A DNA stretch of 64,000 nt. It comes from Oscillospiraceae bacterium. GTDB lineage: Bacteria; Bacillota; Clostridia; Oscillospirales; Oscillospiraceae. Position 1 is the first letter of the stretch; the number at the start of each line of letters is the position of its first letter. Below the pieces are notes generated by a model, which worked only from the letters and a program-made list of their open reading frames with translations, did no database searches and was not told the DNA's origin. The stretch is from the NCBI GenBank assembly GCA_017434755.1, contig JAFRER010000006.1:62001-126000 (forward strand), in the 5' to 3' direction. A program made the position numbers and the translations under genes. Shown one piece after another: positions 2,443 through 63,200 of the stretch.

Positions 2443-2453
2443 GTTAACATAAT
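2443..2453 (+). repeat. XerD-arm-like motif 1
   Basis: GTTAACATAAT. Its reverse complement ATTATGTTAAC resembles the XerD arm of dif. It sits 14 bases past a terminator hairpin. Confidence 0.5.
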
Positions 2454-2492
2454 ATAGTTGCCATAAGATTTTGACGGGAAAGGCGGAGGATC

Positions 2493-3047
2493 TCAGTCCG
2501 TGATCACGCGGGGGATGCGGACATCGTTTTCTTCAACGGGGATGTCTGTACAGAGCATGCGGCGGAAGCAGAGGCAGACGGCGTTGCGACGTTCCCGGGC
2601 GAGGAAGCGGTCGTAATACCCGCCGCCATGGCCCAGTCTGCGGCCGTCTTCCGAGGCCGATACGCAGGGGACGAGGATGAGCTCGAGCTCACCGGCGGTC
2701 TTCGTCTTCGCGCAGTCCTCCGGCTCGGGAATTCCCATCGTTCCCGGGCGCAGTTCGTCAGGACTGTCTATTCGCACGGCGAGCATCTCCCTTCCGACGC
2801 ACTTGGGCACAAATACTTCCTTCCCGTCCGACAGAGCCTGCCGGATGATGCGGTCCGTGGGCGGCTCGCCGGGCATGCTCACATAGACGAACAAGCTCCG
2901 GGAAGCGGCGTATTCCGGGGAGGACAGGACCTGCTCCTGTATGCTCTCTCCGGCAGCGCGTCTGTATTCATCCGGCAGTTCCCTTCGCTTGGCGAGCAGC
3001 CCTTTCCGGAGATGCTTCTTTTCGGTTTTTGCCAGGCTTTGTTTCAT
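2493..3047 (-). CDS. 5-formyltetrahydrofolate cyclo-ligase
   Basis: A 184-residue cytoplasmic enzyme that converts 5-formyl-THF plus ATP to 5,10-methenyl-THF, returning formylated folate to one-carbon metabolism. The family signature GHGGGYYDRF spans residues 139-148, and the N-terminal basic helix with KKHLRKGLLAKRREL is typical. The C-terminus ENDVRIPRVIT also fits. The start at 3047 follows a GGAGGA ribosome binding site at 3051-3056; 23 residues upstream are discarded. Length agrees with the family. No adjacent folate genes. Confidence 0.92.
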   Translation of the reverse strand: MKQSLAKTEKKHLRKGLLAKRRELPDEYRRAAGESIQEQVLSSPEYAASRSLFVYVSMPGEPPTDRIIRQALSDGKEVFVPKCVGREMLAVRIDSPDELRPGTMGIPEPEDCAKTKTAGELELILVPCVSASEDGRRLGHGGGYYDRFLARERRNAVCLCFRRMLCTDIPVEENDVRIPRVITD

Positions 3048-3156
3048 AGATCCTCCACTTCCGGGCAGCGGGAAACAGCCCGTGTGTTCAGTGTACCACC
3101 GGTGCGTGGAAAACACAACGGACGATACGGAGAATGAGAAGCCTGTGAGGAAACTG

Positions 3157-3186
3157 TTGCCGTTATTCCTGACGTGATGCTATACT
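3157..3186 (+). promoter_or_regulatory. Promoter for the flavin reductase-like gene
   Basis: TTGCCG (3157-3162), an 18-base spacer and TATACT (3181-3186) with an extended TGC just before it. Confidence 0.65.
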
Positions 3187-3270
3187 GGTTCCGTAAAGAA
3201 AAGACATGAAAGAAGAGCCGTCCTCCTCATGGTGAGCGGACGGCACGGTAACGGAAAGGAGAAATTGACA

Positions 3271-3816
3271 ATGAGCGGATTCGAGGAAAAAGAATACAAG
3301 GTATTCGATCTTTTCGAGAAACAGTGGGCGCTGGTGACCGCGGGGAACATGGAGCGCTTCAACTCCTGCACGGTCGCATGGGGCAGCCTCGGCACGATCT
3401 TCTCAAGGCCCGGACACAGCGGCCCGACGGCGACGGTCTATCTCCATCCCTCTCGCTATACAAAGGAGATCATGACGGAGAGCGAATGCTTCACGGTGAG
3501 TTTCCTGCCGGAGCAGTACAGAAAGGCATACGGAGTAATGGGCTCCCGTTCAGGCCGCGATCACGACAAGGCGGCCGAAGCGGGACTCACACCCGTGGCG
3601 ATGGGGAAGGCGGTCACCTATGAGGAGGCGGAGCTCGTCTTCCTCTGCCGCAAGATCTATCAGCATCAGTTCACGAAGAGCGATCTTGCAAAGGAGGTGT
3701 GCGATTATTACATCGCGCATCCTGAGGTGTACCCGCCCGACGAAAACGGCGTCTGGCAGCCGCACTGGGTCTTCATGGGCGATATCCTTGAAGTGAGAGA
3801 TAAAAGACAGGGCTGA
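3271..3816 (+). CDS. Flavin reductase family protein (FMN-binding)
   Basis: A 181-residue cytoplasmic protein of the FMN-binding split-barrel flavin reductase type. Recognisable family features are an early WALVTAG stretch, NSCTVAWGSLG (residues about 28-38), HPSRYTKEIM, the fold segment ECFTVSFLP and the GSRSGRDHDK loop. Such proteins reduce FMN or act as small flavin oxidoreductases; the substrate here is unknown. ATG 3271 is chosen because AAAGGAG lies 9-15 bases upstream. It has its own promoter and terminator. Confidence 0.85.
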   Translation: MSGFEEKEYKVFDLFEKQWALVTAGNMERFNSCTVAWGSLGTIFSRPGHSGPTATVYLHPSRYTKEIMTESECFTVSFLPEQYRKAYGVMGSRSGRDHDKAAEAGLTPVAMGKAVTYEEAELVFLCRKIYQHQFTKSDLAKEVCDYYIAHPEVYPPDENGVWQPHWVFMGDILEVRDKRQG

Positions 3817-3820
3817 GAGA

Positions 3821-3860
3821 TAAAGGAAAGACCTTTCCATCCGGGAGGGTCTTCCTTTTA
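3821..3860 (+). terminator. Intrinsic terminator of the flavin reductase-like gene
   Basis: The AAAGGAAAGACC arm pairs with GGTCTTCCTTT with one bulged base; T residues follow. Confidence 0.65.
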
Positions 3861-3869
3861 CTGTAATTT

Positions 3870-3880
3870 GTTTACATAAT
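3870..3880 (+). repeat. XerD-arm-like motif 2
   Basis: GTTTACATAAT, 10 bases past a terminator hairpin; matches the reverse complement of a dif XerD arm. Confidence 0.55.
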
Positions 3881-3950
3881 GAAGTTAACGGATCGGTTAT
3901 CATAAAGGTGGGGAGGACAGGATGAAAAGGAAAAGAAGCGCGGGCAATGG

Positions 3951-6757: not shown

Positions 6758-6773
6758 CTTATTTGTGCGCACC

Positions 6774-6784
6774 GTTAACATAAT
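6774..6784 (+). repeat. XerD-arm-like motif 3
   Basis: GTTAACATAAT, 16 bases past a terminator. Its complement reads ATTATGTTAAC with an ATTATA-like central spacer, and the position of a XerC arm holds AATTGCTGTTA, which only partly matches a Firmicutes XerC arm. Confidence 0.5.
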
Positions 6785-15370: not shown

Positions 15371-15382
15371 GGTTTACATAAT
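15371..15382 (+). repeat. XerD-arm-like motif 4
   Basis: GGTTTACATAAT, lying between divergent genes and without an obvious hairpin beside it. Confidence 0.55.
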
Positions 15383-18669: not shown

Positions 18670-18680
18670 ATTATGTAAAG
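18670..18680 (-). repeat. XerD-arm-like motif 5, overlapping a promoter -10
   Basis: ATTATGTAAAG. It touches the -10 of the lipoprotein promoter at 18679, so its match could be partly coincidental. Confidence 0.3.
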
Positions 18681-18707
18681 TATAGCATCCATCTCTGCCG
18701 AGCACAA
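18679..18707 (-). promoter_or_regulatory. Promoter for the lipoprotein at 18121
   Basis: On the minus strand: TTGTGC, 17 bases, TATACT with TGC extension. Confidence 0.8.
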
Positions 18708-18733: not shown

Positions 18734-18744
18734 TTTATGTTAAC
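18734..18744 (-). repeat. XerD-arm-like motif 6
   Basis: TTTATGTTAAC, one mismatch from ATTATGTTAAC. Confidence 0.35.
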
Positions 18745-23638: not shown

Positions 23639-23650
23639 GGTTTACATAAT
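23639..23650 (+). repeat. XerD-arm-like motif 7
   Basis: GGTTTACATAAT, about 15 bases beyond a hairpin. Confidence 0.6.
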
Positions 23651-27143: not shown

Positions 27144-27155
27144 ATTATGTAAACC
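27144..27155 (-). repeat. XerD-arm-like motif 8
   Basis: ATTATGTAAACC. Together with motif 9 it brackets the hairpin at 27172, pointing outwards on the two sides. Confidence 0.6.
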
Positions 27156-27216: not shown

Positions 27217-27228
27217 GGTTGACATAAT
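27217..27228 (+). repeat. XerD-arm-like motif 9
   Basis: GGTTGACATAAT, one substitution from motif 8 and inverted relative to it. Confidence 0.5.
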
Positions 27229-35109: not shown

Positions 35110-35120
35110 ATTATGTCAAC
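35110..35120 (-). repeat. XerD-arm-like motif 10
   Basis: ATTATGTCAAC, shortly before the tandem array. Confidence 0.45.
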
Positions 35121-35182
35121 AATGTTGAATAGTGCATTAAAAAGGAGCTTGAAACTGCACGGGATAACGCATTGTCAACCGA

Positions 35183-35280
35183 ATGATGGTAACTGAAATA
35201 TGTATAGTAAAATATGTTAATGATATTATGACAAATAAATTATGTATAGGAAATTATGGTGAGTAAATTATGTGAATGAA
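35183..35280 (+). repeat. 14-bp tandem repeat array
   Basis: Seven consecutive 14-base units start at 35183, 35197, 35211, 35225, 35239, 35253 and 35267. Each begins ATTATG or a one-base variant (ATGATG, AATATG, AATATG, then ATTATG four times), followed by eight variable, AT-rich bases. It is AT-rich against GC-rich flanks and lies between two same-strand genes. It resembles an iteron array, and the ATTATG start recalls the XerD-arm motif. Confidence 0.75.
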
Positions 35281-35946: not shown

Positions 35947-35958
35947 GGTTTACATAAT
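35947..35958 (+). repeat. XerD-arm-like motif 11
   Basis: GGTTTACATAAT between two same-strand genes. Confidence 0.55.
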
Positions 35959-38947: not shown

Positions 38948-38959
38948 GGTTTACATAAC
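38948..38959 (+). repeat. XerD-arm-like motif 12
   Basis: GGTTTACATAAC, one mismatch, 17 bases past the terminator. Confidence 0.5.
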
Positions 38960-40350: not shown

Positions 40351-40362
40351 GGTTTACATAAT
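40351..40362 (+). repeat. XerD-arm-like motif 13
   Basis: GGTTTACATAAT, 16 bases past a palindromic hairpin. Confidence 0.6.
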
Positions 40363-43081: not shown

Positions 43082-43093
43082 GGTTTACATAAT
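43082..43093 (+). repeat. XerD-arm-like motif 14
   Basis: GGTTTACATAAT, 18 bases past a hairpin. Confidence 0.6.
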
Positions 43094-44531: not shown

Positions 44532-44543
44532 GGTTAACATAAT
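44532..44543 (+). repeat. XerD-arm-like motif 15
   Basis: GGTTAACATAAT followed by ATATA, giving on the minus strand TATATATTATGTTAAC, the same as the dif centre plus XerD arm in outline. The XerC arm is not convincing. Confidence 0.55.
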
Positions 44544-44555
44544 ATATACGTTCTC

Positions 44556-48172: not shown

Positions 48173-48178
48173 TGTCTG

Positions 48179-48370: not shown

Positions 48371-48402
48371 GTTCTGTTCCTCCCATATAATAGATCTATC
48401 GG

Positions 48403-49053
48403 TCATAGCCCGGTAAAAGACTTGATTTCCTTCTCCAGGAGACGGAAAACATTTGCGACCAGATAACCATCGGCGATCGCATGATTCAGGCGAACGGTCA
48501 CGGGCATGACCAGCCTGCCGTTTTCCTCCCTGTATTTTCCCCAGTTGATGATCGGCGCAAAAAACAAATGACCATCGGGCAGTTCGACATTCAGTGCGTC
48601 ATAAGAAAGCCACGATATATACGACGCATCGAACCAGTTGGGGTGGTTCGCCATATCCAATCCGTATTCTCTCGTCTTTTTTGCCTCTTCAACATCCCGC
48701 AATGCGGCAGCATAGAACTTTTCATAGTCCTCATCGTATTCCGTATACACGGGAGTGCAGGTTTCCGTATCTTCATGAAAAACATACTGCGTAGGATTGA
48801 TCACGTCATAACAGATCAGTTCATCAGTCTGCCAGAGATAACCCATTCTGTAATCGTCGCGTGAATTGAGCACCTTTGAAAGGATATAAAGAAAGTTGAT
48901 ATAAAACTTTGTCCCGGTCTTCCCGGAATATGCAGCAAGTTCGGTCACATCGATCCTCGCCGTCATGGAAGTCGAGCATTTGCAATCTTCCGAAAAGTGA
49001 CGGAACACACCTTTTCTATAATAGGTCTCTCTGTCAATTACCTTATAGTTCAT
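48403..49053 (-). CDS. Chloramphenicol acetyltransferase-like protein
   Basis: A 216-residue CAT-fold protein. Near the C-terminus RLNHAIADG carries the catalytic His191 and the conserved Asp; the N-terminal MNYKVIDRETYYRKGVFRHF is typical. The usual HHAxxDGxH is NHAIADGYL, so the first His is replaced. Whether it confers resistance or acylates another alcohol is not known. It starts within the end of the CPBP gene (11-base overlap), so they are coupled. Confidence 0.82.
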   Translation of the reverse strand: MNYKVIDRETYYRKGVFRHFSEDCKCSTSMTARIDVTELAAYSGKTGTKFYINFLYILSKVLNSRDDYRMGYLWQTDELICYDVINPTQYVFHEDTETCTPVYTEYDEDYEKFYAAALRDVEEAKKTREYGLDMANHPNWFDASYISWLSYDALNVELPDGHLFFAPIINWGKYREENGRLVMPVTVRLNHAIADGYLVANVFRLLEKEIKSFTGL

Positions 49054-49924
49054 CTTCGTTATCCTCATGATCTGCGATTTGCCGGGATTCATGGAGCTGC
49101 CTTTCTTTCTTATCCGCTGCAAGCCACAAGACAACGGATGCTGTCAGCCAGATAACTCTGTGGACATTTGCCGCTGTGCTTCCGGGAAAGCCGTCAAATA
49201 ATGCGTTCCAGTCATATACCGCGCCGATCGCATCGATAAAAGTATGATACAGCGCGCAGGCAATCACGCTTTTTGTCGATTTGTAGATCGCTGCCAAAGC
49301 AAACGCCCAGATAAAGATCGTGATGGCGAATCCGATGACACTGTCTCCGTAATGGTTGGATGTCGGGTCTGTAAACACCGGGAAATGCCAGACGAACCAG
49401 ATCGCGGCGGTAAGAAGGACTGAAAACGGATACGGCATCCTTTTATCCAGTTCCGGCTGCAGCAGGCCCCGCCAGCCGGTTTCTTCGGCGATGCCGACAA
49501 ACGGTATCATGATCAGGAAACCGAGAGGGAACATATACCAGGGCGAGCCGTTGGGCGTTCCGAACAGGATCGCGTAAACAAAAGCGAGCAGACAGAACCC
49601 GCCTGTGATCAGGATGGTCTTCCGCTTGTCCTCCGTGCGGAAGATGTCGCGGAACATCTGCCGGAGACCGGTCTTTTCAATGAACAGGGAAATGATCAGC
49701 ACCGCCACAAAAGGCGTCGGCGTTGAGAATAACAGTCCGATTGCCGCATACAGGAGATAACCGGCTGTCATTTTTCCCGTTTCGCTGTGCTCGATCGAAT
49801 ACGGCAGCAGCCACACGTTGAGGGTGATATAGCAAAAAGCAGACAGAAGGATCACCAGCAGCAGATACCACCACAATCTGTTTAACTGAACTTTGTTCGG
49901 GTTTGATGCTGTTGCATTTCTCAT
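49043..49924 (-). CDS. CPBP family membrane metalloprotease
   Basis: A 293-residue polytopic membrane protein with EETGWRG (residues about 164-170), WFVWHFPVF and HTFID, the three CPBP (CAAX/Abi) motifs with Glu and His for zinc. Such proteases process prenylated or bacteriocin-like substrates, often as immunity proteins. The start at 49924 follows GGAGAT. It is the first gene of the cluster that ends with the DUF6440 and Imm32-like genes. Confidence 0.88.
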   Translation of the reverse strand: MRNATASNPNKVQLNRLWWYLLLVILLSAFCYITLNVWLLPYSIEHSETGKMTAGYLLYAAIGLLFSTPTPFVAVLIISLFIEKTGLRQMFRDIFRTEDKRKTILITGGFCLLAFVYAILFGTPNGSPWYMFPLGFLIMIPFVGIAEETGWRGLLQPELDKRMPYPFSVLLTAAIWFVWHFPVFTDPTSNHYGDSVIGFAITIFIWAFALAAIYKSTKSVIACALYHTFIDAIGAVYDWNALFDGFPGSTAANVHRVIWLTASVVLWLAADKKERQLHESRQIADHEDNEDEL

Positions 49925-49961
49925 AAAAAGATCTCCAAAGACCGATTTTTCGCACACATGT

Positions 49962-49990
49962 ATCCTATCACACCCGCCGTTGGTCCGCAA
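49962..49990 (-). promoter_or_regulatory. Promoter of the CPBP-CAT cluster
   Basis: On the minus strand: TTGCGG, 17 bases, TAGGAT. Confidence 0.6.
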
Positions 49991-50030
49991 CAGCGCTCTG
50001 CCCTCTGTACTGATCTATCCTGTCTGTTTC

Positions 50031-50259
50031 CTGTTCTATACTGACCTATACTTAACTAACCTATACTAACCTATCCTATACTATCCTTACCTGTGTATCC
50101 ATTTTGGATCCAAATTGGATACAGGTCGTATACAAGTCGTATACAGAGGACAGATGCACTGACCTGACCTATACTAACCTATACTATCCTGACCTGCGTC
50201 AACGGGTCGTATCGTTTTCGTGACGCATCCGTGACCGGTTCGTGACTAGTCCGTGACGG
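50031..50259. repeat. Clustered short degenerate repeats
   Basis: Three repeat types in 230 bases without a gene: CCTATACTAACC-like units (50042-50096 and again 50160-50194), GTCGTATAC-like units (50125-50143 and 50206-50213), and four CGTGAC units exactly 11 bases apart (50219, 50230, 50241, 50252). I see no coding pattern. Confidence 0.7.
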
Positions 50260-50297
50260 CATGCCCTAGCGAGGAATCTGATAGAGTCTGCTGAGTG

Positions 50298-50326
50298 TTG
50301 CCCGAACGATGCGGGAATGATACAAT
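50298..50326 (+). promoter_or_regulatory. Promoter for the gene at 50360
   Basis: TTGCCC, 17 bases, TACAAT with TGA just upstream. Confidence 0.65.
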
Positions 50327-50359
50327 GATCATAGTATAAACCATTGGAGGCCTTGTAGA

Positions 50360-51007
50360 ATGATCAGGGATATTGCCTCGTTCACGAACAGAATGGATTC
50401 CTTTCTCGCCCGGAGCAGGGACAGGTGGCAGTATGGAAACGGAATCCTTTACAGGATGTGCCGGGAGGATCCGAAGCATGACGATCCGGACGTCGCAGCT
50501 GCAAAGGTGTGGCTGATTGGCAGAAGCTATGCCGCCGCCATCGAGAGGAGAAAGAACGCGGACGGATTCTCCGGGGATTTCTACCACGATGTGGTTGCTC
50601 CGAAGATGACGAGCATCAGCAACGAACTCGACAGCAGGTTGGAGAAGATCAACGCCACGGAATGTCCTGACGAGAACGCGGCTGATCTTATCCTTAGCAC
50701 ACATCATTTGCTTATGAAGGCTTTTTATGAGATAACCGGACTTGAGAAAAGGTCTCTCGCAGCTAAGTATCTGCATTTCCACTGCCCGGCCGCATTTTAT
50801 ATTTACGACAGCATCGCAAGCCGGGAGGCAAGGAAACTGGTTTCGCTGGATAGGGGAGAGTCGGAGAGCTTCCGCATAGAAGACGTTGATCCGGAATACC
50901 GTGATTTCTTCCTGAGATGCCTCGAGATCAAGGCAGCAACTCTGGAACTGTACGGAAGGGAACTGACACCGCGTGAGGTAGACAGAGTCCTGTTGGGGAA
51001 TACGTAA
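50360..51007 (+). CDS. Hypothetical protein at the edge of the defense island
   Basis: A 215-residue, mostly helical cytoplasmic protein: MDSFLARSRDRWQYGNGILY, VWLIGRSYAAAIERRK, LAAKYLHFHCPAAFYIYDS and TLELYGRELTPREVDRVLL. The helical KYLHFHCP segment recalls abortive-infection-type helical folds but no catalytic motif is visible. GGAGG gives the ribosome binding site. It shares a terminator with the Vsr gene on the other strand. Its codon use looks closer to the GC-rich background than to the AT-rich island. Confidence 0.6.
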   Translation: MIRDIASFTNRMDSFLARSRDRWQYGNGILYRMCREDPKHDDPDVAAAKVWLIGRSYAAAIERRKNADGFSGDFYHDVVAPKMTSISNELDSRLEKINATECPDENAADLILSTHHLLMKAFYEITGLEKRSLAAKYLHFHCPAAFYIYDSIASREARKLVSLDRGESESFRIEDVDPEYRDFFLRCLEIKAATLELYGRELTPREVDRVLLGNT

Positions 51008-51021
51008 GAAGAGGATAGAAG

Positions 51022-51051
51022 AACAGCCGTGTGATTGTTCACACGGCTGTT
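51022..51051. terminator. Bidirectional terminator
   Basis: A 13-bp stem (AACAGCCGTGTGA with its complement, loop TTGT) between convergent genes. Confidence 0.9.
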
Positions 51052-51495
51052 TTACACATAATATCTGTTTTCAACGTAAACTGAACTCAGTTCGTTTATC
51101 ACTCTCTGCATAGTTTCTTCAAAACGTTTCTTCGTCAGTTCGCATTCCCAAATCACTATAACATGCCAGCCCATGCTTTCAAGCTCTTCGATGCTCTTCC
51201 TGTCTCTTGCTGAGTTGAGCTCAAATTTCTTCTGCCAGTATTCTTCATTCGTCTTCGGCGACGTAGCATATCCGCAGAAAGGATGCCTGTGCCAGAAGCA
51301 TCCGTGGATAAATATCACAGTATGATATTTTGGAAGGACGATATCCGGCCTTCCGGGATATCTTTTATCATTTTTTCTGAAACGAAAGCCTTTTGAAAAC
51401 AGATACTTCCGAACCTGTACTTCAATGGTTGTATCATGTCCTTTTATAGAAGCCATATTTCGGCTACGGCTTTCTGGAGAATGATTATCTGACAT
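51052..51495 (-). CDS. vsr: Very short patch repair endonuclease
   Basis: A 147-residue enzyme that nicks at T:G mismatches formed by deamination of 5-methylcytosine. Conserved parts are RSRNMASIKGHDTTIEVQVRKYLFSKGFRFRKN, PGRPDIVLPKYHTVIFIHGCFWHRH (catalytic Asp and zinc ligands) and KKFELNSARDRKSIEELESMGWHVIVIWECE. It is the usual companion of a Dcm-type methylase. It is AT-rich as is the rest of the island. It starts 16 bases after the restriction gene's stop, so one operon is likely. Confidence 0.95.
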   Translation of the reverse strand: MSDNHSPESRSRNMASIKGHDTTIEVQVRKYLFSKGFRFRKNDKRYPGRPDIVLPKYHTVIFIHGCFWHRHPFCGYATSPKTNEEYWQKKFELNSARDRKSIEELESMGWHVIVIWECELTKKRFEETMQRVINELSSVYVENRYYV

Positions 51496-51511
51496 TTTTT
51501 ACACAGTTTTA

Positions 51512-53128
51512 TCAATTAATGCTTTCGTATGATGTTTGGGGTATAGCGGCTTTTTCATATTCTGGGGATGAAGCAATATAGAAACTTGAAGTGCTTTCCA
51601 GGTTGTTTAAATCTGATAACTGTACTTCCTGATTAACGCTGAAAATGTCGCGAATCTGATCATGACTATATCCTTTTTCCGCATAATCCTGAGCAAAATT
51701 AATAAAAATGTCCACAGGCATTGCAGAGCCGCGAACTCCTGTATCAAGAATGATTTCAGATAGCTGTCGGTTAATATAAGAACCGAAAGAACCAGCAATA
51801 TATGAAAAGAATGCCAGCGGGAGCTCAGTATGTCCATAAGACTTATAACTAGGTATGTAAACATCTTCCATCACACGTTTATGATCACCGGTTATGCTAT
51901 ACCCATTTTTATAAGCTTTATTATCAATAATACCGCAGTATCCAAACTCTTCTGAAGCGATGAACACATCCGGAGTGTTTCCAATTGGCCCTACATGCTC
52001 TGCTCTCATATGGAAAACATTCTTAAACAATTCACATGTTGCGATTTCAAAATCTCGCGCGCCTGAAGTACCCATATGAGCCAATTCACGGTAGGAGAGG
52101 AAAAAGTCATCGATATTGCCGTGGGGATAGTTCTGGATCAGAAACCTCTCAACGGTTCTCTCATCAACCCCTGTGTTGTTAGACACTTTTTCAACTATTT
52201 CCGATGTAATGTCTGTGATTGGCATTCTTAAAGCCAGAAGAACAAATTCGCGACGAATGCGCGTCTCAATCATTTCTCTTTGAGACTGAACATTTTCCCT
52301 GTTGAAGTTGCGCCTGTCCATAGCAATATGGCCACGACCGTATTGCCGAAGATAGTTTTCAGTGAGTTCAGGATGAGGAATAAATGCGGGATTATCTTCT
52401 ATAAACAAATCGACGGATGCTTCTTTTCCCTGGCGAACACTGATTGTTTGCCAACCTCTGTCAACATACTGGGTTAGACTTATATAGTTAAAGAAAGTAT
52501 TGGCAATATTACTGTACGTTTTAGTAGAAGTATCATTTATGAAATCTTCTGTGACGTTCTGTCTGTAACGTAGAATGTGGGAAACTACATCTTCAAATAC
52601 CTCAGCAGAATCTGAGACAGCCCTGTGAATAACGATTCCATACATTTCTTCCATAGTCAGCATGTTTTCTAGCCTGGGATCGCGCAAAAGCCGAAAAATA
52701 AACTGGAATGGATGTACCTTAATACTATGATTAATGCTTCCTGTGCCCGACCATGTTGCCGCAGAAGGATACTGATATCTTCTTAGCTGAAGGCGCATAG
52801 CCTCTACAAAGCTAACATTTGCTTTGACAATTTCTTCACCTATAATGGTCAGTCTGCACTTCCTGTTCTCATCTTCAAGAAATACAAGACCCAAATCCTT
52901 CATCTGTTTGAAAAGAGTTCTGGTACCGCCTCCGCCCTGACCTGCTCTCCTTGCGCGAAGTGATCCATGCTCCGTTATCTCTCTGCCACCAAGAACATCT
53001 TCGAATTCAAGTTGCAATTCCAGATTCCATTCTTTTCCCACGCAGACATCACTGTACGCAACCAAAGCCTGAAGGATTGTCGTAAGCTGACGTTTTTGAC
53101 GAGAAACAAACCAGTGTTGATACGGCAT
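51512..53128 (-). CDS. AlwI-family-like restriction endonuclease
   Basis: A 538-residue protein, probably the restriction enzyme that goes with the Dcm gene. The C-terminal catalytic site appears at PDVFI (Asp387) and IDNKAY (Asp402 and Lys404), a PD-(D/E)xK arrangement. N-terminal PYQHWFVSRQKRQLTTILQAL and LRARRAGQGGGGTRTLFKQM fit the AlwI/MlyI-type family, which cuts outside short asymmetric or symmetric sites. The family assignment is moderate. It sits between methylase and Vsr; base composition is low in GC. Confidence 0.7.
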   Translation of the reverse strand: MPYQHWFVSRQKRQLTTILQALVAYSDVCVGKEWNLELQLEFEDVLGGREITEHGSLRARRAGQGGGGTRTLFKQMKDLGLVFLEDENRKCRLTIIGEEIVKANVSFVEAMRLQLRRYQYPSAATWSGTGSINHSIKVHPFQFIFRLLRDPRLENMLTMEEMYGIVIHRAVSDSAEVFEDVVSHILRYRQNVTEDFINDTSTKTYSNIANTFFNYISLTQYVDRGWQTISVRQGKEASVDLFIEDNPAFIPHPELTENYLRQYGRGHIAMDRRNFNRENVQSQREMIETRIRREFVLLALRMPITDITSEIVEKVSNNTGVDERTVERFLIQNYPHGNIDDFFLSYRELAHMGTSGARDFEIATCELFKNVFHMRAEHVGPIGNTPDVFIASEEFGYCGIIDNKAYKNGYSITGDHKRVMEDVYIPSYKSYGHTELPLAFFSYIAGSFGSYINRQLSEIILDTGVRGSAMPVDIFINFAQDYAEKGYSHDQIRDIFSVNQEVQLSDLNNLESTSSFYIASSPEYEKAAIPQTSYESIN

Positions 53129-53144
53129 GTTTTCCTCACTCCCT

Positions 53145-54185
53145 TTATGAAAGGCTTGCTTCTGTTGAAGGATACTCTATTCCGGCAAATGTTTTCAGCA
53201 CTGCTTCAAAAATGATTTTTGCTCCCTGTGCAGGAACTGCCATGCCAATCTGTTTTCTTACAGATTCCTTACTGCCTTCGAATACGAAATCATCGGGGAA
53301 TGTCTGCAGCCTTGCACGTTCTCTGTTAGTGAGGGCACGGTTCTCAGACCAGTGGTATACATGTGTTCCGCCGCCGCCTGATCCTGTGATCGTGTAGGAA
53401 GGCTTGTCTGGATCAAGGCGTTTGTATATCTGGCTGATCTTCGTCCGTGTCTTTATCTGTAGCTCTACGGGAAGATCTGCTGTGAAAGCATTCTGACCGG
53501 GTTTGATATATTTCAGCCGTTCAACCACCTGAGCAGACTGCTTCGTAATCTCATTGTTTGGCGCATCAGCTGGAATCGGCGGGTTCTCAATTGCTTCGCG
53601 GCAACTCTTCGCCGGATACTCTGTAGGGGACGGGATCTTGAACTCGTAGGGCAGGTCTTCTCGTATACCTATAATGATCATTCTGTGCCTTGCCTGGGGG
53701 ATGCCGTAATCTTCAAAATGATACAGATTCGGGCAGATTCTGTATCCTGCATTTCTCATATCGGATTGGATACGCTTGAATGCAATACCATCGTTAGCAG
53801 AACGGATCCCGCCGACATTTTCCGCAAGGAACCATTTCGGTTTGTACTGTAGCAGGACACTTATGCCATATGTATACAGCGGCCCGAACTTCCCTTTGAA
53901 TCCGAGCTGCTCTCCAACAACAGAAAAGTCGTTGCAGGGGAAGCCGAAGGCAAGAGCATCTATCGGGCCGAGCTTGTCAAGATCCAGCATATGTACGTCT
54001 TCGCAGTAAACACTCTCTGGATCGTCTGGACAGATGTTCCTTATATACGTCTGACATGTATCATAATCATAGTCATTTGCCCAGGCATGCTCTATCTTCA
54101 TGCCGGGGACATCTGCGTTCATAGCACCCCATGCGAGGCCGCCCGGCCCGCAGAACAGTTCTCCGAGTTTAAAAACAGTATCCAT
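53145..54185 (-). CDS. dcm: DNA (cytosine-5) methyltransferase
   Basis: A 346-residue C5-methyltransferase: motif I GELFCGPGGL (residues 8-17), motif IV GFPCNDFS with catalytic Cys84, motif VI ENV (Glu122), motif VIII QARHRMIIIG (164-173), and motifs IX and X near TNRERARLQTFPDDF and QIGMAVPAQGAKII. A target-recognition region lies between about 185 and 285. It protects host DNA from the AlwI-like enzyme. It starts directly at the stop of the controller gene (TAAATG), so the two are coupled. Confidence 0.95.
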   Translation of the reverse strand: MDTVFKLGELFCGPGGLAWGAMNADVPGMKIEHAWANDYDYDTCQTYIRNICPDDPESVYCEDVHMLDLDKLGPIDALAFGFPCNDFSVVGEQLGFKGKFGPLYTYGISVLLQYKPKWFLAENVGGIRSANDGIAFKRIQSDMRNAGYRICPNLYHFEDYGIPQARHRMIIIGIREDLPYEFKIPSPTEYPAKSCREAIENPPIPADAPNNEITKQSAQVVERLKYIKPGQNAFTADLPVELQIKTRTKISQIYKRLDPDKPSYTITGSGGGGTHVYHWSENRALTNRERARLQTFPDDFVFEGSKESVRKQIGMAVPAQGAKIIFEAVLKTFAGIEYPSTEASLS

Positions 54186-54398
54186 TTATACTTTCTCCCC
54201 GCTGTTCATCACAAAGTATTTTTCAAACTTCACGCCCAGAACTGAAGCTATCTTTTCAAGATCGCTGACCGTGAAGGATTCTCTTTTCATCTTTGCATTC
54301 AGGCTCTGCGGGGATTTCCCGAGTCTCCTTGCAAGCTCTGCCTCGCTTACGCCGCACCTGACGCACAGCACTTTGATGTGTTCGCTTACAGTCATCAT
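54186..54398 (-). CDS. XRE-type controller protein of the restriction system
   Basis: A 70-residue HTH protein: VSEAELARRLGKSPQSLNAKMKRE is the DNA-recognition part. Position as the first gene of a restriction-modification operon, abutting the methylase, fits a C-protein-type regulator that delays restriction after entry. ATG 54398 follows GGAGGTG; the GTG at 54407 lies inside that site. Confidence 0.85.
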   Translation of the reverse strand: MMTVSEHIKVLCVRCGVSEAELARRLGKSPQSLNAKMKRESFTVSDLEKIASVLGVKFEKYFVMNSGEKV

Positions 54399-54422
54399 GC
54401 GCTTCACCTCCGTTAACTAATG

Positions 54423-54451
54423 ATTATAAATGTTTTCTTTGATGATTTCAA
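54423..54451 (-). promoter_or_regulatory. Promoter of the restriction-modification operon
   Basis: On the minus strand: TTGAAA, 17 bases, TATAAT. Confidence 0.8.
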
Positions 54452-54483
54452 GATTTACTATTAGCTTATATATTGGCTGATAT

Positions 54484-54519
54484 AAAAAGCAACGGACAGA
54501 AAGTTGCTCGTTGCTTTTT
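54484..54519 (-). terminator. Terminator of the GmrSD-type operon
   Basis: AAAAAGCAACG pairs with CGTTGCTTTTT; it ends the gene at 54537. Confidence 0.85.
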
Positions 54520-54536
54520 GGAAAAGTATATTTAGT

Positions 54537-54770
54537 TTATAAAAACTCTTCAGTTAATAGTATCATTAGTTTCTTTGCGTCATCATTGGACAACTGAATG
54601 GACTGGCTTATTTTTCCGGGAATCTCTCTCTGCTCACGGCCATATGTGTCGATTTGAAGATACTTTTCACCATCTTCTTCAAAAACAGTATAAGTGGCGG
54701 ATACAGGGGTATGAATTGAGTTCTTATTCTTATCAATGCGTCTAATATTTTTCCAATCAATTCTTGCCAT
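54537..54770 (-). CDS. Small protein paired with a DUF262 gene
   Basis: A 77-residue protein: MARIDWKNIRRIDKNKNSIH, TPVSATYTVFEEDGEKYLQIDTYG, IPGKISQSIQLSNDDAKKLM. Small proteins of this type are often found beside defense genes, sometimes misnamed as formyltransferase. It starts after AAAGGAG and 32 bases past the DUF262 gene, so one operon. Its role in defense is unknown. Confidence 0.72.
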   Translation of the reverse strand: MARIDWKNIRRIDKNKNSIHTPVSATYTVFEEDGEKYLQIDTYGREQREIPGKISQSIQLSNDDAKKLMILLTEEFL

Positions 54771-54802
54771 AATCAATCTCCTTTTCTAATCTTTCATTAC
54801 TT

Positions 54803-56470
54803 TCATACCCTTTTCCAAATACTTAGGGCATACGTTGCCAATTCAGCCTGTCTTGCATCAATCTCATCAGGGCCCCAGCTGGTTTGAAGCGCAATCTCCT
54901 CGTTAGGTCTGATTTGTGAAGATGCAAAAAATGAACGTTTAAAATCAAAAGGCTTGTTTTGCATTTCCTTATTTAGCGTTGCATCAAGCAAAGAAAGGTT
55001 GCCGAGTCGCCAAAGATATTCAGTATGAACCTCTTCAGATATTTCAGTCCAATGCTCCGGATTCTGCGGCATGATATGCTCTATATGAACTTTGTTGTTG
55101 TCTATTACTACCTCACTTGTCGGGCAGAGATAAGAATGGATTTTCCTGTATATATAGCGTACAGCCGTCTTATCGTATGTCGTGTTCTTCGCTTTCCAAG
55201 TCTTGAACTGCTGGGCAAACTGATCATCGGGCATCATGTTTTCCTGTATCTCAGCCTGAATAGCATGCTTGTCAACGAGTTTCTGGTCAAATATTCTTTT
55301 TGCTGTCTTTGCAAATGCCACTTCAGCGGCGTTGGAAACCAATCCTCCGATTGCAAAGTTTCTGAAAACAAGAGTTTCTATGGTAGAAACGACATCTGCA
55401 ATATCGGCTTCGCTGTAATTGTTGGCCTCCAGAGCAAGAACGATAGGATAAAAGGTTGTTGCTTTCAGATCCTTTAATGCTACTAGACTTGCTTTCAGCC
55501 TTTCATCTGTATAATAGTCGCAGTCCGAAGGACTTGACAAATCGTGATAAACCGGGGCAAACGAAGCCATTTGAATGGAAAAGTATTTGCTGAGCCTCGG
55601 AGTGCTGATTACGTGAATAATTCTTTTGTACAGGTCTTTTTCTCTTGTAAAATCCTGTCGGGAATTCCAGAGATGACGGATGAACTTTGTCGGATCTATG
55701 CCATCGAGTGCACTAATCATTTCCGTCCAGTTTTTCTCTGCCTCTTTTACATCATTGGCCTTGCTGAAAAGGTAATTCTTCAAGAGGTCTGCGGTTTCCA
55801 GATCTTTTCCTCTGGCATTAAGGGTTTCAAAAATGATGAAAGCCTCATTCAGTTTCGTTGCTTCCATATAAAGAACCTTAAAGTTGTCTATGAAAGTATG
55901 ACTGATGAGATCCAGCTCATCCAAAAGATCCACTTCATCATCGATGTTGCTGATTCTTTCATTTATTTTGTTCTCAAAAAACAGAAAAGCCTTTCTCATT
56001 CTTTCCTGAGATGTCTTTTTCTGCTTGTTAACTGGATTCGGATAGCCGGTCTGAATGTTGGTAATGAAATAATCTTTGTCATCATTACCAAGCACCAGAT
56101 GAAGATCGTTGCTGTTTCTTGTCTTTCGCCCAATTAGAGAGGCAATATCTTGAACCATAGCATCAGCATCATCAGTATCTTTGATCAATTCGTTTTCAGA
56201 ATAAAACTTAGATAAGACTCTAAGAAATATCACAGAGGTGATAGATCTCTGTTGTCCATCAATTATAAAAAGCTTTGAATCATTCTCGTTATGAATAACG
56301 ATCTGCCCAAAAAAGTGATAGTCCTTATCAGAAACAGAAGCTTCCAGATCAGCCCAAAAATCTTCAAGTTCTGTTTCTTCCCAAGCATATTCACGCTGAT
56401 ATGTAGGTATGTAGAGCCTTTTACTTAAGTATTCCTTGATCGGCATAATGCTGTTGTTTTGAAGCGCCAT
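54803..56470 (-). CDS. GmrSD-type DUF262/DUF1524 protein
   Basis: A 555-residue protein. Residues about 1-240 are DUF262: LYIPTYQREYAWEETELEDFW and IDGQQRSITSV (nucleotide-binding DGQQR at 71-75). The C-terminal part is DUF1524, an HNH-type nuclease: VHIEHIMPQNPEHW near residue 455 and RLGNLSLLDATLNKEMQNK. Such fused GmrSD enzymes are type IV restriction systems against glucosylated cytosine phage DNA. ATG 56470 follows GAGAGGTC. AT-rich as the rest of the island. Confidence 0.92.
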   Translation of the reverse strand: MALQNNSIMPIKEYLSKRLYIPTYQREYAWEETELEDFWADLEASVSDKDYHFFGQIVIHNENDSKLFIIDGQQRSITSVIFLRVLSKFYSENELIKDTDDADAMVQDIASLIGRKTRNSNDLHLVLGNDDKDYFITNIQTGYPNPVNKQKKTSQERMRKAFLFFENKINERISNIDDEVDLLDELDLISHTFIDNFKVLYMEATKLNEAFIIFETLNARGKDLETADLLKNYLFSKANDVKEAEKNWTEMISALDGIDPTKFIRHLWNSRQDFTREKDLYKRIIHVISTPRLSKYFSIQMASFAPVYHDLSSPSDCDYYTDERLKASLVALKDLKATTFYPIVLALEANNYSEADIADVVSTIETLVFRNFAIGGLVSNAAEVAFAKTAKRIFDQKLVDKHAIQAEIQENMMPDDQFAQQFKTWKAKNTTYDKTAVRYIYRKIHSYLCPTSEVVIDNNKVHIEHIMPQNPEHWTEISEEVHTEYLWRLGNLSLLDATLNKEMQNKPFDFKRSFFASSQIRPNEEIALQTSWGPDEIDARQAELATYALSIWKRV

Positions 56471-56507
56471 AATGAAGACCTCTCTTTGCATTCGCTGTTA
56501 TTGAATT

Positions 56508-57615: not shown

Positions 57616-58395
57616 ATGGACGAAAGGGAAAGATGGGACCGTGCCGCGGGGGAATACCGGCGGGTGTTCGACCTCGGCCTAAGCGACTATAACGCGGCGC
57701 TCCTCCGCTTCTGGACGGAGAGGGGCATGCTGTGGCCCGGGGCCCGCGTGATCGACATCGGCTGCGGTGTGGGCAGGTACGGCACCCTGTTTGCCGAGCT
57801 GGGCTGCGACGTCACCCTGACGGACATCTCGGACGAGATGCTCCGCCATGCCGCGGAGAACATGGCCCGGTACAGGACCCCGTGGACGGTATACCGCTGC
57901 GACTTCAGCGAGGCGACGGGGAAGGAGCCCGTTTTTGAAGGGGGCTTCGACCTTGCGGTCTGCACCATGTCTCCCGCCGTGCACGACGCGGCGACCGTCC
58001 GGAAGATGAGCGGCATGAGCCGCGGCTGGTGCTTTCTCTCCCGCTTCAGCGACTGGCGGCAGCCCTTCCGCGACGGCCTGATGAGCCGGATCGGCATGGA
58101 GCCGCGCAGGGCGCTGAACGACCCGCAGGCCGACTGCGAGGCGATGATCGCGGCGGTCCGGGAGGCGGGCTTCGAGCCGGAGGTCCTGTACACGGACTAT
58201 AACTGGTCGGACAGGCGGACCCCGGAGGAGATGGCGGACTATATGATGCGCTTCTTCTTCGCAGAGGACAGGGATGCGGACGGGATCCGCGAACGGCTCC
58301 TGCTTGCGGCGCGCGAGGAAGCGGACGCCGACGGCACGGTGGACGACGCGGTGTTCACCAAGGCGGCCTGGATCTTCTGGCGCACGAACGCCTAA
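57616..58395 (+). CDS. SAM-dependent methyltransferase
   Basis: A 259-residue class I methyltransferase. VIDIGCGVGRYGTLFAELGCDVTLTDIS (near residues 44-70) has motif I with GxGxG-type GCGVGRYG and the acidic Asp end of beta2; FDLAVCTMSPAVHD is motif IV. Some relatives act on small molecules; the target is unknown. CAGGAGGAG gives the ribosome binding site for ATG 57616. Two segments of this gene recur as a pseudogene at 59487. Confidence 0.88.
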   Translation: MDERERWDRAAGEYRRVFDLGLSDYNAALLRFWTERGMLWPGARVIDIGCGVGRYGTLFAELGCDVTLTDISDEMLRHAAENMARYRTPWTVYRCDFSEATGKEPVFEGGFDLAVCTMSPAVHDAATVRKMSGMSRGWCFLSRFSDWRQPFRDGLMSRIGMEPRRALNDPQADCEAMIAAVREAGFEPEVLYTDYNWSDRRTPEEMADYMMRFFFAEDRDADGIRERLLLAAREEADADGTVDDAVFTKAAWIFWRTNA

Positions 58396-58436
58396 AGACA
58401 TGAATATGCAAATCTTTCGGAAAGAGAGCCGATGAT

Positions 58437-59486
58437 ATGGAAAACAAAAAAAGAGGCAAATGCGGCCCGGAGCTTACATGGAAACTCCGAGGTAGGGCAC
58501 TGATCATCTCCGGAATGGGTGAGATGGATGATCACGAGCTGCCGGAACGTGAGATCAATACCGGGGAGATGAGAGTCTATATTAAGCCCAAGTCATGGAT
58601 ACCCCTTGATATCAGGCGCCTGATCATAAAAAAGGGCGTGACGGGGATCGGGAAAAGGGCTTTCGCAGACTGCAGCAGCCTTGAAAAAGTGGTCATTCCG
58701 GAAGGTGTGACACATATCGGGGATTCAGCCTTCTCGGAGTGCCGCGGGCTGAAGGAAGTGACGATCCCGGCAAGCGTAAGTAGAATAGAGAAATGGGCTT
58801 TCGCCTCGTGCTGGGGCCTGAAGGATGTGTATTATGCCGGAAGCGAGGATGAGTGGAACAGCATCGAAGGCATCTCTGCGGAAGAGGACCTCCTGAAGGC
58901 GCGGAAGCACTTCAGGAAGTCGCTGAAAGGGGCCGATGATATGGAAGCAACAAAGAGCGGAAAATGCGGCCCGGATCTGTACTGGGAACTGCACGGCACG
59001 ACCCTGCGCATATTCGGCACGGGGAGGATGGCGTGGTATGCTACCGATCCGAGGGATGATTCTGATCCGAAGCCATGGGAGGACGATCCGATCGAAAAGG
59101 TCATCATGGAGAAAGGCGTGACGAGCATAGGAGTCGGCGCTTTCTTCCGGCTCGGCACCTTGAAGAGCGTGAAGATACCGAACGGCGTTTTAAGCATAGG
59201 AGCATGTGCTTTTGCCATGTGCCGCAGCCTGAAAAGCATAAATATTCCGGATGGCGTGACGGAGATGGGATTCAGGGCCTTCGACGGATGCAGCGAACTC
59301 ACGTACGCTGTTATCCCGAAAAGTCTGAAGAAAATAGGAAACAGCGCTTTCGGCTCGTGTCAGTCTCTGAAGGATGTGTATTATGCCGGCAGTAAAAATG
59401 AATGGAACCGCATCGAGGGCATCTCCGCGGAAAAGGACCTCCTGAATGCGCAGAAGCACTTCAACCGCACCGTCCCGGAGGCCTGA
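58437..59486 (+). CDS. BspA-type leucine-rich repeat protein with internal duplication
   Basis: A 349-residue protein made of two similar halves. Each begins with KCGPxLxWxLxG and a GxGxM strand, continues with BspA-type LRR units (IKKGVTGIGKRAFADCSSLEKVVIPEGVTHIGDSAF and relatives), and ends in LKDVYYAGSxxEWNxIEGISAE. Such repeats form a curved binding surface. No signal peptide is seen, so it may stay inside or be exported another way. It is 41 bases past the methyltransferase gene. Confidence 0.85.
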   Translation: MENKKRGKCGPELTWKLRGRALIISGMGEMDDHELPEREINTGEMRVYIKPKSWIPLDIRRLIIKKGVTGIGKRAFADCSSLEKVVIPEGVTHIGDSAFSECRGLKEVTIPASVSRIEKWAFASCWGLKDVYYAGSEDEWNSIEGISAEEDLLKARKHFRKSLKGADDMEATKSGKCGPDLYWELHGTTLRIFGTGRMAWYATDPRDDSDPKPWEDDPIEKVIMEKGVTSIGVGAFFRLGTLKSVKIPNGVLSIGACAFAMCRSLKSINIPDGVTEMGFRAFDGCSELTYAVIPKSLKKIGNSAFGSCQSLKDVYYAGSKNEWNRIEGISAEKDLLNAQKHFNRTVPEA

Positions 59487-59610
59487 CGGAAGATGAGCGG
59501 CATGAGCCGCGGCTGGTGCTTTCTCTCCCGCTTCAGCGGACGCAGACGGCATGGTGGATGACGCGGTGTTCACCAAAGCGGCCTGGATCTTCTGGCGCCC
59601 GAACGCATGA
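59487..59610 (+). pseudogene. Partial duplicate of the methyltransferase gene
   Basis: Positions 59487-59538 are identical to 58000-58051, and 59539-59610 match 58324-58395 with few changes. The pieces are joined at a shared AGCG, and 272 bases of the original are missing between them. The stop is TGA instead of TAA. It is a remnant of a tandem duplication followed by deletion. Confidence 0.9.
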
Positions 59611-59664
59611 ACACGAAAGACACAGAAAAAACCGGAAAACAGAAACGGAAAAGAGGAGTTTGCC

Positions 59665-62419: not shown

Positions 62420-62444
62420 GCGGCAGGGATCCCGAAAAGCAGAG

Positions 62445-62472
62445 TTGACAAAACCGGAAAGAATGCTATAGT
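62445..62472 (+). promoter_or_regulatory. Promoter of the hicAB operon
   Basis: TTGACA, a 16-base spacer and TATAGT with TGC extension. Confidence 0.75.
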
Positions 62473-62476
62473 ATAT

Positions 62477-62495
62477 GTAACTGAATGTCAGTTAC
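62477..62495 (+). promoter_or_regulatory. Operator-like inverted repeat before hicA
   Basis: GTAACTGA, three bases, TCAGTTAC: an 8-bp perfect inverted repeat just after the -10. It is the likely binding site of the RHH antitoxin. Confidence 0.75.
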
Positions 62496-62510
62496 GGAAG
62501 AAAGGCACAT

Positions 62511-62777
62511 ATGAGCAAAGAGGAAAAAATGATCGAGAGGCTCAAAGCCCTTCCGTCCGATTACACATTCACGGAGGCGCGGACGCTGGCAGGCCGCTTC
62601 GGATATAAGGAAATGAGCAAAGGGAGCACTTCCGGCTCAAGGGTCCTGTTCTGCCGCGAGCGGGACGGCCGCAAGATCCTTCTGCACAAGCCGCATCCCG
62701 GCGATGTTATGAAGCTGTATGCCGTCCGGCAGCTGCTGGCCGCGTTCAGGGGGAACGGAGATATCGATGAAGAATAA
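62511..62777 (+). CDS. hicA: HicA-type mRNA interferase toxin
   Basis: An 88-residue HicA fold: TFTEARTLAGRFGYKEMSKG, GSRVLFCRERDGRKILLHKPHPGD, with His in HKPHP as a likely catalytic residue. HicA toxins bind and cut RNA when free. The gene overlaps hicB by 11 bases. Ribosome binding site GAAAGG. The operator at 62477 suggests autoregulation. Confidence 0.92.
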   Translation: MSKEEKMIERLKALPSDYTFTEARTLAGRFGYKEMSKGSTSGSRVLFCRERDGRKILLHKPHPGDVMKLYAVRQLLAAFRGNGDIDEE

Positions 62778-63111
62778 TATGATCGAATACAAGGGCTATT
62801 GGACAAAGGTCGAATTCAGCGCGGAGGACAGGGTACTCTACGGGAAGATAGAGGGCATCGCCGATCTGGTGAACTTCGAATGCGAGGATCCCGGCAGGGT
62901 CGAGGAGGAGTTCCGGCAGGCGGTCGACGATTATCTTGCATTCTGCAGAGATCTCGGGAAAGACCCGGAAAAGCCGTACAAAGGCGTGTTCAACGTGCGC
63001 GTCTCTCCGGAGCTTCACCGCAGGGCTGCCGCCGCAGCAGACAGCCGGGGCGAAACGCTTAACGCCTTCGTTGCGCAGGCGATCAGCGCCGCGGTGGACG
63101 GGAGAACCTGA
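62767..63111 (+). CDS. hicB: HicB antitoxin with ribbon-helix-helix domain
   Basis: A 114-residue antitoxin: an N-terminal HicB fold (IEYKGYWTKVEFSAEDRVLYGKIEGI, residues about 5-30, and FECEDPGRVEEEFRQAVDDYL) and a C-terminal RHH DNA-binding domain (FNVRVSPELHRRAAAAADSR). The RHH domain should bind the inverted repeat at 62477. It starts within hicA (11-base overlap) so the two are coupled. Confidence 0.92.
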   Translation: MKNNMIEYKGYWTKVEFSAEDRVLYGKIEGIADLVNFECEDPGRVEEEFRQAVDDYLAFCRDLGKDPEKPYKGVFNVRVSPELHRRAAAAADSRGETLNAFVAQAISAAVDGRT

Positions 63112-63144
63112 AAGCGTCCGGTCGGTTTCAGCGGAGCAAATGAC

Positions 63145-63174
63145 AAAGGGCAGGGGAGTTATCCTCTGCCCTTT
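63145..63174 (+). terminator. Terminator of hicAB
   Basis: AAAGGGCAGGGGA pairs with TCCTCTGCCCTTT (one G-U pair); the motif at 63189 follows. Confidence 0.85.
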
Positions 63175-63188
63175 ATATCGCTTAGGCT

Positions 63189-63200
63189 GGTTTACATAAT
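63189..63200 (+). repeat. XerD-arm-like motif 16
   Basis: GGTTTACATAAT, 14 bases past a terminator. Confidence 0.6.

Follow-up and report, generated by a model that had tools for sequence, protein, structure and literature searches.

The repeats scattered through the 64,000-nucleotide stretch of DNA from a rumen gut bacterium analysed here (the window) are probably XerD half-sites, which, judging from sequence, would serve in autoregulation of xerD and in this genus would also be scattered as extra docking sites. Such a half-site would consist of the XerD arm of dif and the adjoining central-region bases, approximately 14 bp in all, without the XerC arm. Beyond what a sequence-only reading had described, we report direct-repeat rows with a 14-bp pitch, sites upstream of xerD, and the placement of sites downstream of hairpins.

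The word, its copies and its 14-bp rows

The window contains 16 matches to GGTTTACATAAT with at most two mismatches, against 1.57 expected by chance, and none of 100 shuffles reached this number. No 12-mer is more frequent in the window than GGTTTACATAAT, whose seven copies are equalled by TGGTTTACATAA and the complements of both; TGGTTTACATAA is the same word shifted by 1 base. Across the whole genome, a draft of 27 contigs, exact copies number 13 for the word and 0 for the reversed word, and matches with up to two mismatches 143 and 60, respectively. Although it makes up 2.7% of the assembly, the window holds 7 of the 13 exact copies (binomial p = 2e-8) and 11 of the 40 matches with at most one mismatch (binomial p = 7e-9); half-sites are also present on ten further contigs.

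At all 16 places listed in the sequence-only reading the motif is found, with coordinates correct to within 1 base, and 15 of the 16 window matches at up to two mismatches were on that list, the missing one, at 7590, being poor and situated at a gene start. The accompanying statement that no copy lies inside a confident CDS is nearly right, but, as judged with a home-made gene caller, the copy at 18670 overlaps a called ORF and that at 44532 the first codons of another. The tandem arrangement of some copies (35165-35276, and weaker second units 14 bp on at 2442, 3869, and 6773) had been missed.

Copies of the word stand singly or in head-to-tail rows, in which it recurs as a direct repeat every 14 bp. 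In 546 kb of the genome (contig C17 and stretches chosen, when the pitch was still unnoticed, for their motif hits, which included close pairs), runs of at least three units with a mean score of at least 13 number six at pitch 14 and one at pitch 13, versus none at the eleven remaining pitches between 10 and 22, and six permuted motifs yield none at any pitch. Runs of at least four units with a mean score of at least 11 are found at pitch 14 (four) and pitch 22 (two). Low-score three-unit runs are less clear-cut, with 7 at pitch 14 versus up to 4 at the others (2 versus 0-1 in C17 alone) and up to 4 at pitch 14 for permuted motifs, the pitch tests being weak at loose thresholds and clear at stricter ones. 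The 14-bp runs in G034 and G012 are left out of the argument for the pitch, because these stretches came from a search for the 14-bp pattern. Rows diverge in sequence yet keep the pitch; a search of viral contigs with one exact pattern returned no three-unit rows.

Within the window, three plus-strand half-sites have a hairpin before them and a second unit 14 bp on, namely TGTTAACATAAT at 2442..2453 (weaker second unit), TGTTTACATAAT at 3869..3880 (forming a low-score three-unit run), and CGTTAACATAAT at 6773..6784 (weaker second unit, convergent called genes). An exact copy of GGTTTACATAAT at 15371..15382 (plus) has divergent called genes on either side and lacks a strong hairpin. On the minus strand, the weak half-site ACTTTACATAAT at 18670..18681, which overlaps the called ORF, may be due to chance, and GTTAACATAAA at 18734..18744 lies outside the called genes. 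The exact half-site at 23639..23650 (plus) follows a hairpin of -13.4 kcal/mol, just below the cut used. One terminator-like hairpin is shared by two outward-facing half-sites on its opposite flanks, an exact one at 27144..27155 (minus) and GGTTGACATAAT at 27217..27228 (plus). TGTTGACATAAT at 35110..35121 (minus) lacks a strong hairpin, and a tandem array of six clear and two weak units at an exact 14-bp pitch occupies 35165..35276 (minus); by eye, this array lies behind a terminator of the minus-strand gene 35367-35912. The remaining sites are all on the plus strand: an exact, intergenic half-site without a 5' hairpin at 35947..35958; GGTTTACATAAC after a strong hairpin at 38948..38959; exact half-sites at 40351..40362 (after a strong hairpin, called genes convergent) and 43082..43093 (after a hairpin, both neighboring genes on the minus strand); GGTTAACATAAT after a hairpin at 44532..44543; and an exact half-site after a strong hairpin at 63189..63200.

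By RNA folding, a hairpin of -14 kcal/mol or stronger lies within 55 bp on the 5' side of 11 of the 18 sites, versus 20.6% of 500 random intergenic places. A strict hairpin finder gave 5/18 sites on the 5' side and 2/18 on the 3' side, versus 25/400 random places; it missed bulged stems, and RNA folding was therefore used instead. A reading of the word as a -35 promoter element was dropped because, by eye, no -10 element stands at 17 bp at the sites looked at.

Sites upstream of xerD and the search for dif

Of the 161 strong sites in 80 XerD loci, 157 are upstream of xerD. As expected of an autoregulatory site, they are kept there across genera: two units exactly 14 bp apart precede the gene in 45 of 48 Oscillospiraceae loci with XerD identity of at most 64%, and at least one site is found at all 32 loci close to this genome, whose own XerD passes the curated XerD cut-off. 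The motif ACATAA is invariant at both units in all 45 paired loci; the third unit of this family array stands 13 bp, not 14, from the second. Whereas spoIIM was detected in 43 of the 48 loci and in none of the 32 nearer ones, the sites stay with xerD in both groups. Promoter-like TAATATATTG is present in 17 of 33 loci near this genome, always with TTATGTTAA 10-14 bp behind it (17/17) and mostly with TTNACATAA upstream (14/17), which places sites on both sides of the xerD promoter. In place of a 14-bp row, these promoter-type loci have a distant upstream copy and, by eye, a 17-bp downstream spacing where a second copy is present; L126, one of ten promoter-type loci, has TTATGTCAA.

The complete relative G224 contains one two-unit match (up to one mismatch) in its whole genome, located in front of spoIIM-xerD, which favors a local autoregulatory site over a global regulon there. 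A pair in G302, at the same stringency, falls, by eye, within coding sequence that has no relation to xerD. In seven genomes from other genera, all complete or nearly so (the terminus being mapped in G224 only), GTTWACATAAT forms no obvious cluster, with 1-15 copies each; its counts against the reversed control (9/2 in G224, 2/0 in G302, 1/0 in G313, 2/0 in G044, 2/5 in G130, 15/2 in G177, and 2/0 in G307) indicate that the scattering of sites is not general.

The likeness of the reverse complement to the XerD arm, pointed out in the earlier reading, is real: ATTATGTAAAC is identical to the XerD side of Bacillus subtilis dif as printed (PMC3025954), and TTATGTAAACC is the XerD side given for Syntrophus aciditrophicus (PMC2731167). 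Conservation of sites at the xerD promoter makes the link to XerD stronger. According to PMC5357621, dif measures 28 bp, with two 11-bp arms and a 6-bp center; the 14-bp unit has half this length. In this genome, no match with up to three mismatches was found to a Firmicutes dif consensus, which is one base from B. subtilis dif, and a second dif pattern yielded a single poor hit among 60 genomes, this one included. Judged by these searches, the repeats are not dif, which would be one 28-bp site with a 6-bp center between two inverted 11-bp arms. A loose pattern combining the XerD and XerC arms matched 46 times, in 27 of 41 genus genomes, against 17 for the reversed control, and these hits are mostly unrelated, with no sequence common to more than a few genomes. 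Recurrent hits beginning TTTACATAATCTTCTTTCTCG and those with TTTACATAATGTCGATTCTCTGTCAT look coding by eye; two pairs (G368/G344 and G025/G367) look dif-like, without a wider candidate. Because no dif turned up, the XerD arm of this genus could not be taken from that site. At the XerC-arm distance, TTMT follows TTNACATAA at only 2 places in 546 kb of the genome.

Taken as half-sites, the repeats would be bound by XerD, which might repress or tune its own operon through those at the promoter and, in this genus, dock at many scattered ones as well; some rows could accommodate several adjacent XerD monomers. The scattered sites most likely have a chromosomal use, such as stalling or unloading SMC complexes, by analogy with B. 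subtilis XerD, and a position behind terminators would shield them from RNA polymerase. More speculatively, and on balance improbably in its entirety, XerD in Oscillospiraceae might be a sequence-reading chromosome organizer besides a recombinase, one that forms a filament-like stack on head-to-tail 14-bp rows, controls its own operon by way of such a row, and in one rumen genus removes SMC complexes through half-sites multiplied into a regional set. That would be a recombinase-based equivalent of matS/MatP in Gram-positive bacteria. The xerD promoter row may itself have founded the set and, in genomes with xerD at the terminus, may also be an unloading site.

The replication terminus and other readings

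The sequence-only reading took the repeats for terminus XerD-binding sites (XDS) that unload SMC, with the window beside dif. In full, this is a possible account, yet one we consider rather less likely to be right than wrong. The XerD-arm match, the clustering, and half-sites outside dif that lack a XerC arm at the proper distance all agree with XDS, and B. subtilis XerD is reported to unload SMC at the terminus (PMC12322038, PMC8669397). The concentration of sites in the window stands, but proximity to the terminus is not established by skew, dif, or orthologs: GC skew has no lasting sign change on the window's 162-kb contig, FtsK-type words have no clear flip on C17, no dif was found, and C17 ORFs with matches in G224 (some overlapping; 1.2 of 2.19 Mb sampled for placement) split into 4 near the origin, 5 at the terminus, and 5 mid-arm. 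Site orientation agrees with GC skew at 24 of 38 sites, which is not significant (p = 0.14); window sites in this set, 11 plus and 3 minus, are suggestive only. In G224, the single array lies near the skew switch, flanked, within the sampled 0.9-1.3 Mb, by the maxima of GC skew (1.204 Mb) and of GAAGGG polarity (1.235 Mb), as a terminus role would have it; however, being the spoIIM-xerD promoter array, it is accounted for by that. Between 1.13 and 1.53 Mb of G302, neither a close XerD match nor a lasting switch of skew was found. The sites on ten other contigs also speak against the full reading. A location of the window at the terminus is possible.

Operators of some other regulator, cell-cycle or phage-type, that controls xerD and other genes, with the XerD-arm likeness arising by coincidence or convergence, are an unlikely explanation. 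Sites on both sides of the promoter in 14 of 17 promoter-type loci resemble ordinary operators, fixed-pitch rows suggest a cooperative binder, and one row (G000:C26:4578-4647) stands directly before an ATG. Against this, 11 of the 18 C17 sites are behind hairpins and not at promoters, no wider regulon is seen in G224, where the array occurs once, and the word is identical to XerD arms printed for several bacteria. Operators of the OmpR/PhoB type are direct repeats at a pitch of approximately 11 bp, which is also the pitch of some known direct-repeat regulators that recognize TTNACA-like words; the pitch here is 14, and strong runs at 11 number zero.

A protein roadblock that backs up intrinsic terminators, halting read-through RNA polymerase, would fit the hairpins and the outward-facing pair at 27144 and 27217, but we regard it as distinctly improbable: at 7 of the 18 sites no hairpin reaches the cut, both genes flanking 43082 run the opposite way, and the xerD promoter sites are left unexplained. 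Least probable is a reading of the sites as leftovers of a small dispersed repeat or of cassettes with dif-like sites at their ends, since, despite the hairpin, spacer, and word that 38948 and 40351 have in common (62 bp at 81%), the similar hairpin at 63189, and the brief matches of two close relatives (incomplete assemblies) to window positions 34500-45100 (at most 562 bp, 65-93%), most sites have no XerC arm at the proper distance, a 5-formyltetrahydrofolate cyclo-ligase gene lies between sites, self-comparison gives no further pair of single sites alike beyond the word, and rows keep their pitch while diverging in sequence. Integron or pdif cassettes were likewise rejected, as several segments are multi-gene and one carries this housekeeping gene.

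Relation to known systems

If the repeats are XerD half-sites, the row at the xerD promoter, easily recognized in nearly all Oscillospiraceae loci examined, offers a direct test of XerD self-regulation and of whether XerD monomers pack side by side on direct repeats, and the scattered half-sites form a natural set for asking what XerD does away from dif. To our knowledge, removal of SMC complexes at the chromosome end is known in few bacteria. Karaboja et al., in Mol Cell in 2021, are said to have found that XDS unload SMC in B. subtilis, where these sites reportedly cluster in one chromosome region. Like them, the sites described here are XerD-arm sequences outside dif, clustered in one region; unlike them, they form rows with a 14-bp pitch, include conserved sites at the xerD promoter, and often lie behind hairpins. 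With dif they share the XerD arm, the adjoining central bases, and a unit length of half a site, but most lack the inverted XerC arm, copies are many, and the repeats are direct and not inverted arms. As in difSL/XerS and difH/XerH, a recombinase-type site adjoins its xer gene, which in G224 lies near the skew switch; in contrast, the XerD here is of the two-recombinase type, and a direct-repeat row before the operon stands in place of an inverted pair. Finally, if the scattered sites marked a region and displaced an SMC-type complex, the logic would be that of matS/MatP in Enterobacteria, albeit through a different protein system.

Abundance and placement of the half-site

The repeated 12-mer GGTTTACATAAT, a putative half-site that resembles the XerD arm of dif and at most sites comes without the XerC arm, is matched 16 times in the window at up to 2 mismatches, against 1.57 expected and a maximum of 5 in 100 shuffles, and is the joint commonest 12-mer there. 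The motif described by the sequence-only reading is thus real and lies close to the positions it gave. Across the 2.335-Mb draft (27 contigs), the exact word occurs 13 times and the reversed word never; the window, C17:62001-126000, holds 7 of the exact copies (p = 2e-8) and 11 of the 40 copies at up to 1 mismatch (p = 7e-9). These 40 are spread over the window's contig C17 (12 copies), C26 (6), C10 (5), C22 (4), C11 (3), C5, C12, C15, and C18 (2 each), and C1 and C7 (1 each), so the clustering is real yet extends past the window. Of 20 genomes, this one among them, 16 carry the exact word and none has its reverse. In seven genomes from other genera, all complete or nearly so, GTTWACATAAT has 1 to 15 copies with no obvious cluster; among the seven, the terminus was mapped only in the complete relative G224.

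Consistent with the claim that the sites lie between genes, 16 of the 17 strong C17 sites (score ≥17.9) fall outside genes called by a codon-based caller, which missed some AT-rich genes, or just touch a gene end. They occur in convergent, divergent, and co-directional arrangements, and the orientation of sites shows no significant agreement with skew (24/38). Hairpins of at most -14 kcal/mol were found within 55 bp 5' of the word at 11 of 18 sites, compared with 20.6% of 500 intergenic positions drawn at random (p = 7e-5); on the 3' side there was no such excess (4/18, p = 0.40). The half-site at 27217 is followed closely downstream by a SAM riboswitch (27309-27397; Rfam RF00162, 51.1 bits).

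The window also contains an AT-rich stretch (48001-56000, GC 0.43-0.47), possibly recently acquired, in which large ORFs at 51512-53128, 53145-54185, and 54803-56491 were uncalled by the codon model. Local duplications were seen, one within 58000-59614 (58.0-58.4 versus 59.5-59.6 kb; 52 bp identical plus 80 bp at 90%) and one within 46493-47702 (46.5 versus 47.1 kb; 583 bp at 71%). An NCBIfam scan of 20 window ORFs, some of them shadow frames, gave no match for 16, and 34500-45100 shares only short matches with two close relatives, both incomplete assemblies.

Rows of half-sites at a 14-bp pitch

Around 76 strong sites (score ≥16; second match ≥11; matrix hand-drawn from the window's copies), the commonest same-strand neighbour offset was +14 (16%), followed by -14 (9%) and then by +28, +42, and +56, the median offset having none. 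In 546 kb of the genome, where stretches outside C17 were chosen for motif hits, some being close pairs, runs of at least 3 units with a mean score ≥13 numbered six at pitch 14, one at pitch 13, and none at any remaining pitch between 10 and 22. With a mean ≥15, runs of two or more units numbered eight at pitch 14 and never exceeded 3 at another pitch, and six permuted motifs yielded at most 0 and 2 under the two criteria, respectively; pitch 14 became less distinct when thresholds were loosened. Rows of at least 5 units lie at 35165-35276 in the window (6 clear and 2 weak units), C5:119919-119988, C15:15132-15201, and C26:4578-4647 (five units at 14-bp pitch, variant RTTRACAKAA). The C26 row sits immediately 5' of an ATG with a ribosome-binding-like GGAG and in this differs from the hairpin-side rows. 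Rows also occur in two other genomes, G012 and G034, but in stretches that had been chosen with a 14-bp pattern.

According to PMC5357621, dif comprises a 6-bp centre flanked by two arms of 11 bp, and hence half of dif measures 14 bp. In B. subtilis this half is ATATTATGTAAACT (sequence from PMC3025954), the reverse complement of AGTTTACATAATAT. We note that the row pitch equals this half-site length, and infer that it reflects XerD monomers bound side by side.

Repeats of another kind occur in G224 (616506-625207, locus L287), where segments of roughly 265-375 bp, with 82-95% identity between most pairs, start near 616506, 617554, 618889, 620290, 621523, 623651, and 625129. Some adjoin CAGTTAACATAACAAAAG and a GC-rich hairpin, and together they look like a candidate cassette array.

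A conserved array upstream of xerD

A protein search from the XerD of this genome (C12:193958-194845, above the XerD cut-off; genes recognised by eye as ruvC- and ruvA-like lie downstream) recovered uncultured Oscillospiraceae of rumen type, with 94-96% identity for two of them, and the named genera Oscillibacter, Papillibacter, Intestinimonas, and Dysosmobacter at 56-61%. The 80 XerD loci hold 161 strong sites (score ≥17), of which 157 are on the upstream side of xerD, 147 of these no more than 1 kb away. Among 48 loci with at most 64% XerD identity, the best spacing-14 pair 200-2200 bp upstream reached a sum ≥26 in 45, all with the invariant ACATAA in both units and with a third unit, CATAA, 13 bp beyond the pair; L213, L220, and L233 fell short of this cut. 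By tblastn, a SpoIIM-like gene was detected ahead of xerD in 43 of these 48 loci and in none of the 32 with at least 68% identity (L179-L210), whose bacteria may have lost or moved spoIIM; in all 32, nevertheless, one or more sites lie in the 1 kb upstream of xerD. The sites are present with or without spoIIM and therefore go with xerD, which points to XerD itself as the predicted binder and to autoregulation.

A promoter-like TAATATATTG was found in 17 of 33 near xerD loci, this genome counted, followed 10-14 bp downstream by TTATGTTAA in all 17 and preceded by TTNACATAA in 14. Among 30 genus loci, a set partly overlapping the 33, 10 share this promoter type; L126 carries TTATGTCAA and the other 9 TTATGTTAA. 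No title among the matches listed in the open-access literature concerned xerD-promoter sites or autoregulation. Together, the sequence and the xerD-promoter sites make the putative XerD-arm identity of the half-sites, as the sequence-only reading proposed, well supported.

Terminus, dif, and the B. subtilis sites

The proposal that the window lies near the terminus fares less evenly: the concentration of sites favours it, but C17 has no lasting GC-skew flip, its skew being near zero or weakly positive and dipping slightly below zero in scattered 8-kb bins, and no dif was named. With the patterns used, no canonical Firmicutes-type dif was found in this genome, which has XerD, or in the 60-genome and 41-genome sets; Oscillospiraceae dif may be divergent or xerD-linked. 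G224, a member of the same family, is a single contig of 2,185,546 bases with dnaA at 22-1290. Its sole two-unit match at up to 1 mismatch, at 1,226,272, stands in front of spoIIM-xerD (xerD ORF 1,227,087-1,227,990; SpoIIM assigned via Pfam and a TIGR02831 match below its cut-off). The match falls between the maxima, within the sampled 0.9-1.3 Mb, of cumulative GC skew (1,204,001) and GAAGGG polarity (1,235,369). In Oscillibacter valericigenes, the xerD locus lies at 2.10 of 4.41 Mb from the record start, which may not be the origin. Thus, xerD and its row may be near the terminus in some relatives, a question separate from that of the scattered sites.

The half-sites are possible terminus sites of predicted SMC unloading, as reported for XerD sites in B. 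subtilis (Karaboja et al.). Against the B. subtilis description as given in citing passages, and with the reservation that parts may already stand in the original paper, the rows at 14 bp, the promoter array conserved across genera, and the placement of sites behind hairpins are, as far as known, new.
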